DNA from: an uncultured Saccharospirillaceae bacterium
GTDB taxonomy: Bacteria; Bacteroidota; Bacteroidia; Flavobacteriales_D; CAJJDF01
Length of the DNA stretch: 64,000 nt
Assembly: GCA_950054195.1 (NCBI GenBank)
Contig: CATLPG010000005.1
Coordinates: 1-64,000, forward strand
Direction of reading: 5' to 3'
The notes below the pieces were generated by a model. The model made no database searches. It saw only the letters and a program-made list of their open reading frames with translations, and was not told the DNA's origin. Made by a program: the position numbers and the translations under genes. Of this stretch, positions 8,694-57,846 are shown in pieces; the stretch's first letter is position 1; each line of letters opens with the position of its first letter.

Positions 8694-8710
8694 GTTACTA
8701 CCCATTTGGT

Positions 8711-9649
8711 ATGAAAATGCCAGGACGATATGGAAGTGAGAATGGTAATTATAGATATGGATTTAACGGAATGGAGAGTGATGATGAGATGTTTAACCAA
8801 GAGGGGAATAGTTATGACTTTGGAGCTAGGATGTATGATAGTAGGATTGGGAGATGGAGTAGTACGGATGCTTTGGAGAGAAAGTACACCAGTTACACAC
8901 CTTACAGTTTTGTAAATAATATGCCTATTATAGCTATTGACCCTAATGGAATGGAAATAGTGATTCCTAAAGGTTCTGAAGCATCTTATAAAGAGTTCAG
9001 AAAGAATGCCGATAGAAAAACTAAAAGAAGACTTAGGAAATTAGATAAGAGTGATATTAAATATGAAATAGGATTTGTCCAACAATATCAAATGAGAATG
9101 GGAACTGTTCAAAGTTCAAGCATTAATTCAAATGGTATAACGAAGCTTAAATCAGATAATCAAGACGGAATAACAGTTCAATTATTGATAGATAAGGGTG
9201 AAAGTAAAAGTACTCAGTTCTCAGCATTAGCAGAAGAAATTTCACATGCAGAGGATTTTGAAAACGGAGAAATGTTTTTTCTTTCATTTGGAGATGTTGA
9301 AGGTTTTATCTTGGGACAAGATATCCATGATGAAATAAAGTCCAAGGATGCTTCGTTAAAATATATGAAGAAAGCATCTAGAAAGAGCGAGGAAATAGAG
9401 TTGACCGAGATTAATGAAGAATGGTCAAAAATAGAAACAACAGATGGTAAAATTAAGGCTCTCACAGGAGAAAAAGCTGATATTTTTGGAGATTACAGCG
9501 ATATTTCAACTGAGAAAGTAGACAAAAACACTATGAACGATTCAGGGTATAAGAATGCATTGAAAAACGTACAAAAATCTGGAATTAAAGAACCTAGTGT
9601 TATATACAGGGAAAAAGGAGAGACTAAAAGAATTTCAACTAAAGAGTAA
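8711..9649 (+). CDS. Rhs-repeat core fragment with variable C-terminal tail (5'-truncated)
   Basis: Residues 1-75 match the conserved end of the Rhs repeat-associated core: RYGFNGMESDDE, YDFGARMYDSRIGRWSSTDAL, and YTPYSFVNNMPIIAIDPNGME. After the core comes a 235-residue tail, the position of the toxin in polymorphic Rhs toxins. It contains LAEEISHAEDFENG at about residue 175, which resembles the zincin helix HExxHA but has Glu in place of the first His. The core normally begins far upstream; here YYPFG is encoded in frame just before the ATG (8696-8710), and a stop precedes it at 8678-8680. The gene is therefore a cut-off tail, not a complete Rhs protein. Whether it is expressed is uncertain; ATG 8711 has no evident ribosome-binding site. 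Confidence 0.7.
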   Translation: MKMPGRYGSENGNYRYGFNGMESDDEMFNQEGNSYDFGARMYDSRIGRWSSTDALERKYTSYTPYSFVNNMPIIAIDPNGMEIVIPKGSEASYKEFRKNADRKTKRRLRKLDKSDIKYEIGFVQQYQMRMGTVQSSSINSNGITKLKSDNQDGITVQLLIDKGESKSTQFSALAEEISHAEDFENGEMFFLSFGDVEGFILGQDIHDEIKSKDASLKYMKKASRKSEEIELTEINEEWSKIETTDGKIKALTGEKADIFGDYSDISTEKVDKNTMNDSGYKNALKNVQKSGIKEPSVIYREKGETKRISTKE

Positions 9650-9654
9650 TTTTG

Positions 9655-10095
9655 ATGAAGTCATTAGTAGTATTAAGTGTTTTGTGTTTTTCTTTTTTAG
9701 GCGATTGTAAAATAATAGTAGAAAAACAAACGAAGGATGAGTTAATATTTTCATTCAAAGGAAATAAAGTAGTATATCGCAATAGTGTTTTAATGAAGCA
9801 TGAGTATATCATTTTAGATGATTTCGTTTTTGTTCAAGGAAGGACAAATAGCTTTCCAACTTTTAGTCAGTTTCATAATTTATATTACGTATCTGAGAGA
9901 TGTGAAATGGAAAACATAAGGTATAGCAATGTAAAAATAAGTAATGGAAAAGCTGAACGTGTCTCGAAAGAGTTATATAAGACAAAAATTCAAAACGGAG
10001 AATTACATATAGACAGTGCCGGTGTAACACTAGAAAGATTAAGCTCAAAAAATATCAAAGAAAAACTCAAAAAATATTTTTATGTTAATGAGTAA
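9655..10095 (+). CDS. Small exported protein downstream of the Rhs tail (possible immunity partner)
   Basis: This 146-residue protein starts at ATG 9655, five bases after the Rhs stop; an in-frame TTG one codon earlier is less likely. Residues 1-18 form a signal peptide (LVVLSVLCFSFLGDC) with a Cys at about 18 that could be a poor lipobox. The rest is a charged, strand-rich chain without a recognised domain. The position directly behind a polymorphic tail is where immunity proteins are found, but that role is inferred from context only. Confidence 0.5.
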   Translation: MKSLVVLSVLCFSFLGDCKIIVEKQTKDELIFSFKGNKVVYRNSVLMKHEYIILDDFVFVQGRTNSFPTFSQFHNLYYVSERCEMENIRYSNVKISNGKAERVSKELYKTKIQNGELHIDSAGVTLERLSSKNIKEKLKKYFYVNE

Positions 10096-10271
10096 TGTTG
10101 CCTCCGTTCCCGCAAGTTTGCAGCTTGGGTAATGTATCAGAATGGTTGATAGTAATCAATAAACACTAATGTTCATTCATTCTAAAAGCAGGACCAACAG
10201 TATTGATAAAAGTGAAGTTGTAACTGATTGGTGTTGTTTTGGGGTGGTGGTAATTTAAAAAGTAAAAATAG

Positions 10272-10312
10272 ATTATGGTAATACTAAGAAGAATACTTAG
10301 TATTACCATAAT
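10272..10312. repeat. Perfect 17-bp inverted repeat over the start codon of the next gene
   Basis: The arm 10272-10288 is the exact reverse complement of 10296-10312, with a 7-base spacer. The pairing stops at both edges (G10271/A10313 mismatch). The ATG at 10275 lies in the left arm, and codons 1-12 run through the whole structure. As RNA it would hide the start codon; as DNA it is a large operator-like palindrome. Confidence 0.85.
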
Positions 10313-10670
10313 AATACTTGCTTTAATTGAGTTTTATCAAGCAATTGAATGGATTATTACTTTTAATCAAGAACAACTTTGTTTTGTTGCTTACACATTA
10401 CTGGATTTCTTAATTTTAGCTACAGTCCTAGTTTATACCTGCACACACATTATTCTAAATAAGTTTATCCCCAATAGTAATCAATTTCTTATATATGCTG
10501 GGTTAAGTTTCATTTATATAGGATATGAAATTGCTATTATCCAAGCAGAATTATTTTATTCATGGAATATAATGATTTGTTTAGTAGCCGCTTTTGGTTC
10601 CCTAATTACTGATGATGAAAAGTGGTTTCCTTTAAATAAGAGTGACAATAATACCAAAGAAGATAATTAA
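10275..10670 (+). CDS. Four-helix integral membrane protein of unknown function
   Basis: This 131-residue protein has four predicted membrane helices at about 5-27, 38-60, 72-92 and 97-114, and a charged C-terminal tail (NKSDNNTKEDN). No domain is recognised. The start is the only ATG or GTG near the first helix, and it sits inside the perfect inverted repeat at 10272-10312. The gene follows the Rhs tail and its small exported partner by 179 bases and may be part of the same accessory module, though no shared promoter is visible. Confidence 0.5.
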   Translation: MVILRRILSITIIILALIEFYQAIEWIITFNQEQLCFVAYTLLDFLILATVLVYTCTHIILNKFIPNSNQFLIYAGLSFIYIGYEIAIIQAELFYSWNIMICLVAAFGSLITDDEKWFPLNKSDNNTKEDN

Positions 10671-10946: not shown

Positions 10947-10977
10947 AAAAAAGACCAATGCTTAGCATTGGTCTTTC
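10947..10977 (-). terminator. Rho-independent terminator of the porP-gldJ transcript
   Basis: A perfect 12-bp stem (10950-10961 with 10965-10976) has a 3-base loop. On the minus strand it is followed by a T-rich run. It lies 23 bases beyond the gldJ stop. Confidence 0.9.
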
Positions 10978-10998: not shown

Positions 10999-12921
10999 TT
11001 ATCTTCTCCTAGCTCTAATACCAGTTGGGCTACCAACTCTAGTCATAGCACATCTAAACCCAATAAAATCTGTAGATCTATGTTCATCATAGTACCTTCT
11101 AGTACCAGGATTCATCCAGTAAGCTCTATCTCTCCAGCTACCACCCTTAAATACTCTAGAATGATCATGAATTAAAGATCTTGGTTTATTAGCCTCATTA
11201 CCACCAGATTTGTACATAACCCAATTAGGGTTTTGTCCAGATCTGTTTCTTTCAGCTAAATCTGTTTGTCCATCAAACTCATTAATCTTTTCTTTTACAT
11301 CTCCATTTTCATAATAAATACTAGAGGTTAAATCACCATCTAGGTAATCAATATAATCTGCTTGTTGGTAGTTTCTTCTATCTAAATTTTCTTCAGCAGT
11401 AATCTCTCTTGTTTTGATGTTACCAGGGGTATTCATTACAAAGTCAGAAATTCCCTTCTTAATTTTTGGTACCAACTCAAATTGGAAGTTTTCTAAACCT
11501 TCAGTTCCTTGTACGTTAGCAACAATATCTGGAATTAATGTTTCCATTACTTCTCTAACAGCAATCGAAGCATCTAGTTTTCTACCATCTAGGAAAAGCT
11601 CATTAGCAACACCAATTGCACTTTTTACAGTATCTAGTAAGTAACTATCTAATGAGTCGGATACTACACCAGCAACTCTAGTTTCTCTAGCAGCAGTAAA
11701 GTCAACCAAATACTCTACAATACCAGGTACATCATAAAGCGCCTCATCTAACTTATCATCGGTTGCACCCTCACTGTTTAGTACTGTTGTTTTAAATACG
11801 TTACCTCTAAATGGTCTAAAATCATCAAAGTCTTCAGAAGAAAGTGGTCTGTATACATCCATTACCCACTCAGAAACATTACCTCCCATGTGGTATAAGC
11901 CATAATCATTAGGCCAGTAAGAAATTACAGGAGCAGTAACATCGGCTTTATCATTTAAGTTACCAGCAATTCCCATGTAATCTCCTCTACCTCTTTGGAA
12001 ATTAGCTAACATTTCTCCTTTAAACTTATCATCTGGGTTTCTAGTCCAGTGACCATCCCATGGGTATAACCTTCTACTAGTAATACGACCATCCACAACA
12101 TTACCAATTAAACCGTAAGCAGCATATTCCCACTCAGCTTCAGTTGGTAATCTGTAACGAGGAAGTAGAATACCATCTTCCATTTTTACCTTTCGTGGAG
12201 CTAAATCCTTTGTTCTAATTCTTCCACCGTTTCCACCACCGCTTCCATTGTTAGGATCAAGATCTATTAATTGTCCTTTAGGGTTGTCAGAGTTTTCGTA
12301 TTGACCAGCCATGTATGCATCTGTAGTGTAAGGCTCATTTTGTTGGTTATTGTTCCATAATAAAATACCTTCTCTAATTAAGATGTATTCGTTAACTCTA
12401 TCGGTTCTCCAAGCACAATAGTTATTAGCTTGTAACCAACTAACACCTACTACAGGATAGTCTCTGTATGCAGGGTGTCTTAAATAATACTCTACATAAG
12501 GTTCGTTATACCCTAATTTACTTCTCCATACCAAAGTATCAGGTAAAGCTTTTTTGTAAACTACTGGAAAATCGGTATACGTTCTTTTAGGCCAGTGTAA
12601 GTAATCTAACCAATGTTGATTAGTAACTTCCGTTTCATCAATGTAAAAAGATGATACAGTAACTCTTCTTGGAACATTATTCCAATCAAACGCCACATCT
12701 TGCTCAGTTCTTCCCATTGTAAAAGTACCCCCCTCAATAAGAACCAAACCAGGTCCAGTTTCTTGATCAACAAACTTGGCTTTTAAGTAACCTCCATTTG
12801 TTGGATCATTGTAATTCCATCCAGTTGCAGAAGACCTATCCTTTCTTCCACAAGAAGCAATAAATCCAACTGCTACAAAAAGAGCAATGAACTTACTTAC
12901 TTTAACTTTCGACTTCCTCAT
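10999..12921 (-). CDS. gldJ: Gliding motility lipoprotein GldJ (SUMF1-fold, non-enzymatic)
   Basis: GldJ is an outer-membrane lipoprotein needed for gliding and stable type IX secretion. The start chosen is ATG 12921, preceded by AAGGAAAG; an in-frame upstream ATG at 12987 would add 22 Lys-rich residues and bury the signal peptide. Residues 1-24 form a lipoprotein signal ending in IASC. The formylglycine-generating-enzyme-like fold starts with GPGLVLIEGGTFTMGR, followed by DETEVTN, and closes with VFKGGSWRDRAYWMNPGTRRYY and FIGFRCA. A Ser-Ala-Thr-Gly-Trp-Asn-Tyr segment after the Cys is GldJ-like rather than GldK-like. At about 640 aa it is longer than the roughly 560-residue Flavobacterium protein because of an internal insert. 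Neighbouring porU and porV match the known gldJ-porU-porV grouping. Confidence 0.88.
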   Translation of the reverse strand: MRKSKVKVSKFIALFVAVGFIASCGRKDRSSATGWNYNDPTNGGYLKAKFVDQETGPGLVLIEGGTFTMGRTEQDVAFDWNNVPRRVTVSSFYIDETEVTNQHWLDYLHWPKRTYTDFPVVYKKALPDTLVWRSKLGYNEPYVEYYLRHPAYRDYPVVGVSWLQANNYCAWRTDRVNEYILIREGILLWNNNQQNEPYTTDAYMAGQYENSDNPKGQLIDLDPNNGSGGGNGGRIRTKDLAPRKVKMEDGILLPRYRLPTEAEWEYAAYGLIGNVVDGRITSRRLYPWDGHWTRNPDDKFKGEMLANFQRGRGDYMGIAGNLNDKADVTAPVISYWPNDYGLYHMGGNVSEWVMDVYRPLSSEDFDDFRPFRGNVFKTTVLNSEGATDDKLDEALYDVPGIVEYLVDFTAARETRVAGVVSDSLDSYLLDTVKSAIGVANELFLDGRKLDASIAVREVMETLIPDIVANVQGTEGLENFQFELVPKIKKGISDFVMNTPGNIKTREITAEENLDRRNYQQADYIDYLDGDLTSSIYYENGDVKEKINEFDGQTDLAERNRSGQNPNWVMYKSGGNEANKPRSLIHDHSRVFKGGSWRDRAYWMNPGTRRYYDEHRSTDFIGFRCAMTRVGSPTGIRARRR

Positions 12922-12971
12922 ATTCTTTCCTTTTTTCTTTTTCTTTAACAACAAGTGCTTCCTACTAATAA

Positions 12972-13937
12972 CTAAAAAGAAGGACAACTTATTGTTCTAT
13001 ATCTTTTTCTAGGAGGTTTACATGTAAAGTTCAATTGGAATGAAACTTCATGCGAACCTGCTGTTGCTAAAGTTAATTTACTTGTTGTTACATCATAGCT
13101 ATATCCAATTTTAGCTAAGTCTGATTGTAAACCAATTAATAGAATAAATGCATCTGCATTTCTATACCATGCTCCAAACCATAATGGTCCTTTGGTTACA
13201 TATAAACCTAAATTTAACTGCTGAAACGTACCTTGCTGTCTAAATAAAACGTTTGGAGAAATTTTAGCATCGTTTTGGGAATACTTGCTTTCTGATAATG
13301 AAATTAATGCACCTGCATGACCTGTTAACTTCATTGGTAGTGGACTATTTCCTTGCACTAAGGATTCGTCTGGCTCAGTTAAGTGATGAGCAGCAAATCC
13401 AAAATAAAAATTCTTGCTAAACCCTAATAAACCAGCAGAAAAATCTACACCAGTTTTTCTTCCTCCCCTTGGTATATCTGCAGTTTGATAAACAAACCCT
13501 CTTCTTGGGTCAATCATATCTCCAAATGTTAACTTGCTCCAATCTAAACTTTTTTGGAAAAAAGTTGCTTGAAAACCAGCTCTGATTGAAAACTGACGAG
13601 AAACTTTAAATTGGTAAGAATAAATCCCAGAAACGTTAAGTGTAGATAAAGTTTTAGCAGCAACATCATTTGTTACTAATAAACCTAGCCCACCTTTAAG
13701 TCCTCTAACATTTTGATCGTAGGAAACACTTTGTGTAACAAAAGTTCCAGAAATTCCTGGCCACTGATTTCTGTAGTTCATTGAAACCCTAGGACAATTG
13801 TGTGTTCCTGCAAAGGCAGGATTTAAGTACAATGGGTTAGCATAGAACTGTGTAAACTCAGGGTCTTGGGCCTTTAAATTAAAGGCCAAAACCAGCGAAA
13901 ACAGGGCAATATATGTTTTTAACAAGTTCGTGTTCAT
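12972..13937 (-). CDS. PorP/SprF-family type IX secretion outer-membrane protein
   Basis: This 321-residue barrel protein has a signal peptide (1-23, cleaved after LKAQ). The hallmark N-terminal motif is QDPEFTQFYANPLYLNPAFAGT, with NYRNQWP soon after. PorP/SprF proteins are outer-membrane partners of the T9SS; several paralogues usually exist, each linked to particular exported proteins or to the PorK/N ring. Here it precedes gldJ by 50 bases on the same strand and diverges from porU. That position suggests a partner of GldJ rather than a dedicated SprB-type adhesin, but this is inference. The usual gldKLMN genes are not in this window. Confidence 0.88.
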   Translation of the reverse strand: MNTNLLKTYIALFSLVLAFNLKAQDPEFTQFYANPLYLNPAFAGTHNCPRVSMNYRNQWPGISGTFVTQSVSYDQNVRGLKGGLGLLVTNDVAAKTLSTLNVSGIYSYQFKVSRQFSIRAGFQATFFQKSLDWSKLTFGDMIDPRRGFVYQTADIPRGGRKTGVDFSAGLLGFSKNFYFGFAAHHLTEPDESLVQGNSPLPMKLTGHAGALISLSESKYSQNDAKISPNVLFRQQGTFQQLNLGLYVTKGPLWFGAWYRNADAFILLIGLQSDLAKIGYSYDVTTSKLTLATAGSHEVSFQLNFTCKPPRKRYRTISCPSF

Positions 13938-57108: not shown

Positions 57109-57213
57109 TTTTTTTGATCATTATTGTTTAACATATTTTAATTCCCTTTAACGTTCTTTAACGCGGTTGGATGTTTTCTTTTTTCATTTTTGTCAAAATA
57201 AAATCAAACAAAA

Positions 57214-57846
57214 ATGAAAAAGAAATTAAAAAATGTAAGTGTGTTGCTTTTAATTGCATCACTTGGATCTTGTACAATTACAAAAAGACAACATAGATCA
57301 GGTTATCACATCGAAAAAAGGAATTTATTTGCTTATTCTTTGAAAAATAGTGTCTCGAAAAAGGCAACAAAAAAAATAGATGGAGAGACTCCATTAATAG
57401 GTCAAAGCATTATAGCAGAAGATGATGTAAATAAAACTGATTTTAAGGTTAAATCAAAGCCTAAACTAAAGGGACAAATTGAAAAACTTACTCATATTAA
57501 AGTTCCAGTCCTTCAAAAAGAAGAAGCTAAAAGTGTTGTTTCTAATAAAAAAAATGTTGCTAGTAGCGAAGTTAAATATTTACAAAAGGAAAAATCTGGT
57601 AAAGTTGAGATTGGAGAAAAAGAAATTTGGTCTTATATGGGGTTAATCTTTACCATTTTAATGGCTTTGTTTCCTTTGTTTATAGGAGTTCCGGCATTGA
57701 TTTACAGTGTTAAAGGCTTAAAAAGTAATAAGAGAAAAATGTCTCGATGGACATTGGTTATTACTATTTTGCTTTTTCTACTAATGATTATTTCTTGGGT
57801 AAATGTTGGAATGATTTATTTTCAAGGACTATACTTTGTTTTTTAA
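57214..57846 (+). CDS. Putative lipoprotein with two C-terminal membrane helices
   Basis: This 210-residue protein has a signal ending in ASLGSC (lipobox, Cys20). The mature start KRQHRSGYHIEKRNLF is a pattern I know from small Bacteroidota lipoproteins of unknown role. A Lys-rich linker follows. Two membrane helices lie near the C-terminus (about 148-172 and 182-207), separated by a basic loop. A lipidated N-terminus plus two helices is an odd combination, so the lipid site or the topology may be otherwise. Confidence 0.55.
   Translation: MKKKLKNVSVLLLIASLGSCTITKRQHRSGYHIEKRNLFAYSLKNSVSKKATKKIDGETPLIGQSIIAEDDVNKTDFKVKSKPKLKGQIEKLTHIKVPVLQKEEAKSVVSNKKNVASSEVKYLQKEKSGKVEIGEKEIWSYMGLIFTILMALFPLFIGVPALIYSVKGLKSNKRKMSRWTLVITILLFLLMIISWVNVGMIYFQGLYFVF

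Follow-up and report, generated by a model that had tools for sequence, protein, structure and literature searches.

A perfect inverted repeat with 17-bp arms covers the start codon of an orphan membrane-protein gene adjoining an Rhs tail. The explanation we prefer, with a probability of roughly 45%, is that this palindrome is a recent template-switch inverted duplication, which incidentally silenced or damped the gene. The repeat and the frames that run through it are placed as follows in the window, i.e., the whole stretch of 64,000 nucleotides that was analysed.

10272 to 10288, plus strand: left arm, ATTATGGTAATACTAAG, with an A at position -3 and the ATG start
10289 to 10295, plus strand: loop of 7 bases, AAGAATA
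10296 to 10312, plus strand: right arm, CTTAGTATTACCATAAT, which codes for the beginning of transmembrane helix 1
10275 to 10670, plus strand: ORF for an orphan four-helix membrane protein, 131 aa
10163 to 10309, minus strand: short frame of 47 codons and a stop, with the N-terminus MVILSILLSITII mirroring MVILRRILSITII

The original prediction of a perfect 17-bp inverted repeat with a 7-base spacer was exact. All 17 positions of the arms were reverse-complementary over 41 bases in all, and the stem contained only four G-C pairs. Complementarity ended abruptly on both sides; 0/5 of the first positions outward of the arms paired, and 7/20 paired overall. Perfect arms with such a sharp loss of pairing beyond them fit one inverted-copying event. 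In 20 sequences simulated from the window by a third-order Markov model, perfect repeats with spacers of 3–20 never had arms exceeding 12 bp. In about 419 kb of unmasked sequence, sampled as stretches of this genome, the palindrome was the longest perfect inverted repeat, and the next three (16 bp each) were terminator-like or abutted gene ends. The palindrome is far outside chance expectation. No second arm site with fewer than two mismatches was present in the 3.27 Mb genome, where the number of sites equalled that of a reversed-pattern control, and a mobile or repeated element was ruled out because the arm sequence is unique in the genome. Scanning of viral contigs did not find the palindrome. 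Elsewhere in the window, a 14-bp perfect inverted repeat with a spacer of 14 (57180–57221) overlaps the called start of the ORF at 57214–57846.

The ORF at 10275–10670 is probably a real gene. Its codon score was 0.072, as compared with a mean of 0.077 for hydrophobic pieces of long genes, and was higher than those of 99% of off-frame pieces. The frame is open across the palindrome and its N-terminus looks natural, with a positive pair (RR) followed by helix 1. A four-helix membrane protein had been proposed from the letters, and four long helices were obtained in an AlphaFold2 single-sequence model of low confidence (pLDDT 66). Searches of the ORF against Pfam, NCBIfam and PADLOC gave no credible match. 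The claim that the only usable start codon lies within the left arm also held, since no ATG, GTG or TTG after the ATG at 10275 is serviceable before helix 1. Codons 1–12 traverse both arms and the loop as described, and codon 13 holds the end of the right arm. Codons 2–13 scored -0.14 against 0.09 for the rest of the ORF, a value within the normal range, as 18% of genes score lower.

In the palindrome, third codon positions face third codon positions. From this register, the minus strand too has an ATG at its start, and MVILSILLSITII is read from it where the plus strand reads MVILRRILSITII. The minus-strand frame opens at the ATG of the opposite arm and extends into the repeated flank, and it is probably not a gene. 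When the peptide was recoded synonymously, all 17 pairs were kept in 7 of the 200,000 recodings (mean 10.9 pairs). Complete pairing at the given peptide could come from direct copying of an arm or from strong selection on pairing, between which the recoding test does not separate.

The following features are arranged around the gene.

8696 to 8808, plus strand: 5' shared stretch of the Rhs tail cassette, rhs core DNA, 90%
8711 to 9649, plus strand: 312 aa comprising an Rhs core and a unique C-terminal tail, with TIGR03696 scoring over the cut-off
9655 to 10095, plus strand: lipoprotein-like ORF past the Rhs tail, a candidate immunity gene by its position
10151 to 10251, plus strand: 3' flank shared with the Rhs locus of contig C16 (92%) and in part with contig C98 (88%)
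10949 to 10977, minus strand: ordinary terminator of the gldK-like gene at 10999–12987 (minus strand)

The ORF does adjoin an Rhs tail, and the shared cassette flank lies just upstream of it as well. A shared rhs core, a unique tail and a small gene downstream, as in an Rhs tail cassette, were all found. The second Rhs locus of the same genome, on contig C16, has 113 bp of the core (90%) and the 101-bp 3' flank (92%) in common with the window, and the two loci differ between these shared stretches. The palindrome begins 21 bp after the end of the shared 3' flank, in DNA that is absent from the other copies. The flank itself, a sequence of about 100 bp, has three copies in the genome (window 10151–10251, L023 and L024), two of which are 3' flanks of Rhs tail cassettes, and on its reverse strand all three contain KTTPISYNFTFINTVGPAFRMN or close variants. 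The intergenic stretches at 1620–2040 of L023 and 1060–1420 of L024 contain repeated motifs, e.g., ACTCGTTACAAACGAGCGCCAG and CAAGTTGCAAACTTGCGG. Within the Rhs tail at 8711–9649, the peptide LAEEISHAED resembles by eye a degenerate zincin-type metallopeptidase motif.

No credible homologue of the ORF was found in about 1,200 related genomes, viral contigs or plasmids, and exact peptide patterns of the ORF gave no trustworthy homologue in 84,980 species genomes. None of the genomes searched had a relative carrying the palindrome. G001, a genome of the same genus, retains the gldK-like and porP-like genes, and nothing in the 18 kb stretch compared there matched the ORF, the palindrome or the Rhs cassette. 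A single weak look-alike (L059; 33% alike, E 1e-5) is doubtful as a homologue and shares no Pfam family with the ORF; it adjoins an XRE-type regulator, and its start is without the palindrome arms. Three further matches were rejected: L017 has no open gene at the matched site, L060 falls within or next to another, larger membrane protein and has a stop inside the matched part, and L069 contains stops.

To account for these features, the following course of events is proposed. A nascent strand would have folded back and switched template, in an event of the type that perfects quasipalindromes, leaving a short inverted duplication in the 5'-terminal part of a membrane-protein gene that is specific to the lineage and adjoins the Rhs tail cassette. 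If one arm served as the template for the other in a single step, the 17/17 pairing, the mirror-register codons and the abrupt edges would arise together. In any plus-strand transcript, the AUG and the A at -3 would then be folded into a hairpin of -20 kcal/mol, and little or no translation would be expected; no opening signal is implied. The single-copy sequence, the lack of a relative carrying it and its absence beside the gld/porP genes of the same-genus genome argue for this event, as do the few G-C pairs of the stem and the lower codon score of codons 2–13. The rarity of complete pairing among the recodings also favors it, though selection on the RNA would give the same result. The exact placement over the start codon argues against template switching, under which it is a coincidence, and perfect arms could also have been selected for, as a hairpin or as an operator. 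We infer the event from its form alone, because no ancestral imperfect version was found.

Template switching that perfects repeats is established in E. coli (PMC7202029). Its quasipalindrome products, in lacZ reporters and at the thyA hotspot, are likewise short and perfect, with a small spacer and sharp edges, and are made in one step (PMC7202029), whereas for the present palindrome no parental imperfect sequence is available. Perfect inverted repeats of which both arms code for protein are also known from the mitochondrial palindromes of nematomorphs (PMC6649704); those are long, numerous and located in conserved genes, while the present case is single, short and over the start of an orphan bacterial gene.

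The RNA structure over the start codon bears on the alternative that the original prediction had raised first, a translational lock opening on some signal. The RNA from 10240 to 10340 folded at -31.4 kcal/mol (z = -7.4), which none of 200 shuffled sequences matched, and the palindrome hairpin alone at -19.8 kcal/mol. The predicted pairing probability of the AUG was higher than 0.99. The region from -30 to +40 was the second most structured of 322 ORF starts (-20.9; mean -6.9, sd 3.7), in a ranking whose first and third places are perhaps mis-called starts. Translation in Flavobacterium relies on low structure in the start region and on an A at -3, and structure is avoided at its starts (PMC6847099). 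Since the start and the A at -3 both lie within the stem, the predicted hairpin should occlude the start codon and a plus-strand message should be poorly translated. Rfam gave nothing above gathering scores, and a known RNA family was ruled out, as all matches were far below the gathering score.

In a selected lock, the AUG would stay closed, and the membrane protein off by default, until heat or the action of a helicase, a protein or an sRNA melts the hairpin; we regard this as unlikely. Stable structure does lie across the initiation site, as a regulated RNA lock needs, and the near-complete pairing of the AUG, the fold z-score, the rank of this start and the agreement of the synonymous codon choices with pairing all point in its direction. 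However, no conservation, Rfam family or alternative open fold was identified, and a perfect 17-bp stem would be hard to open, unlike the graded stems of RNA thermometers. Known start-sequestering hairpins, i.e., translational locks and RNA thermometers, likewise hold the AUG within a stable stem, but the window hairpin has no demonstrated opening signal, alternative fold or conservation. The strong hairpin over the AUG stands from that proposal, while a signal, a regulator, conservation and covariation found no support. It is very improbable that the dual-coding mirror hairpin is a true on/off translational lock for a membrane protein, possibly an immunity protein, of the Rhs cassette.

The other function proposed originally, an operator for a dimeric regulator, is less probable still. 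In this reading, the regulator would bind the 17-7-17 repeat in the DNA, and transcription of either the ORF or a divergent transcript would be under its control. The site is symmetric, lies at a gene start and is the longest perfect repeat of the sampled sequence, and intergenic palindromic pairs exist elsewhere in the genome, e.g., before an ATPase gene in L023. However, the genome-wide search for related arm sites described above did not exceed its control, no regulator gene is listed among the neighbouring ORFs, the site is within a coding region, and no clear or canonical promoter of the Bacteroidetes type was visible immediately upstream. The pair in L023 (1237–1287) consists of two GTATTTTATAAAATAC palindromes, which together make a 14-bp inverted repeat, just before the start of the ATPase gene at 1199 (minus strand), and is operator-pair-like.

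As in an intrinsic terminator, a T-rich (U-rich in the RNA) tail, CTATTTTTACTTTTT, comes after the hairpin on the minus strand, and the palindrome was one of three terminator-like sites, against 0.4 from shuffled sequences. A terminator or insulator that halts leftward, antisense reading into the Rhs cassette is nevertheless quite improbable, because the gldK-like gene, which is read leftward, is already served by a terminator of its own (10977–10949), other long terminators here have A and T runs joined directly to the stem, and A-rich stretches of this kind are also common as leaders preceding start codons in Bacteroidetes. An assembly or amplification artefact is the least probable explanation and hardly credible: the genome is a draft of 118 contigs and foldback chimeras are a known source of short perfect inverted repeats, but an open frame and a natural N-terminus (RR, helix 1) would be rare in a chimera.

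To our knowledge, the Bacteroidetes phylum does not use Shine-Dalgarno initiation. If the lock were true, the locus would offer a natural experiment on how ribosomes of the Bacteroidetes, which do without Shine-Dalgarno pairing, handle a fully buried AUG. If, as we prefer, the palindrome is a copying accident, it would be a clean natural inverted duplication over a start codon, and would represent the silencing of an orphan gene in one step.
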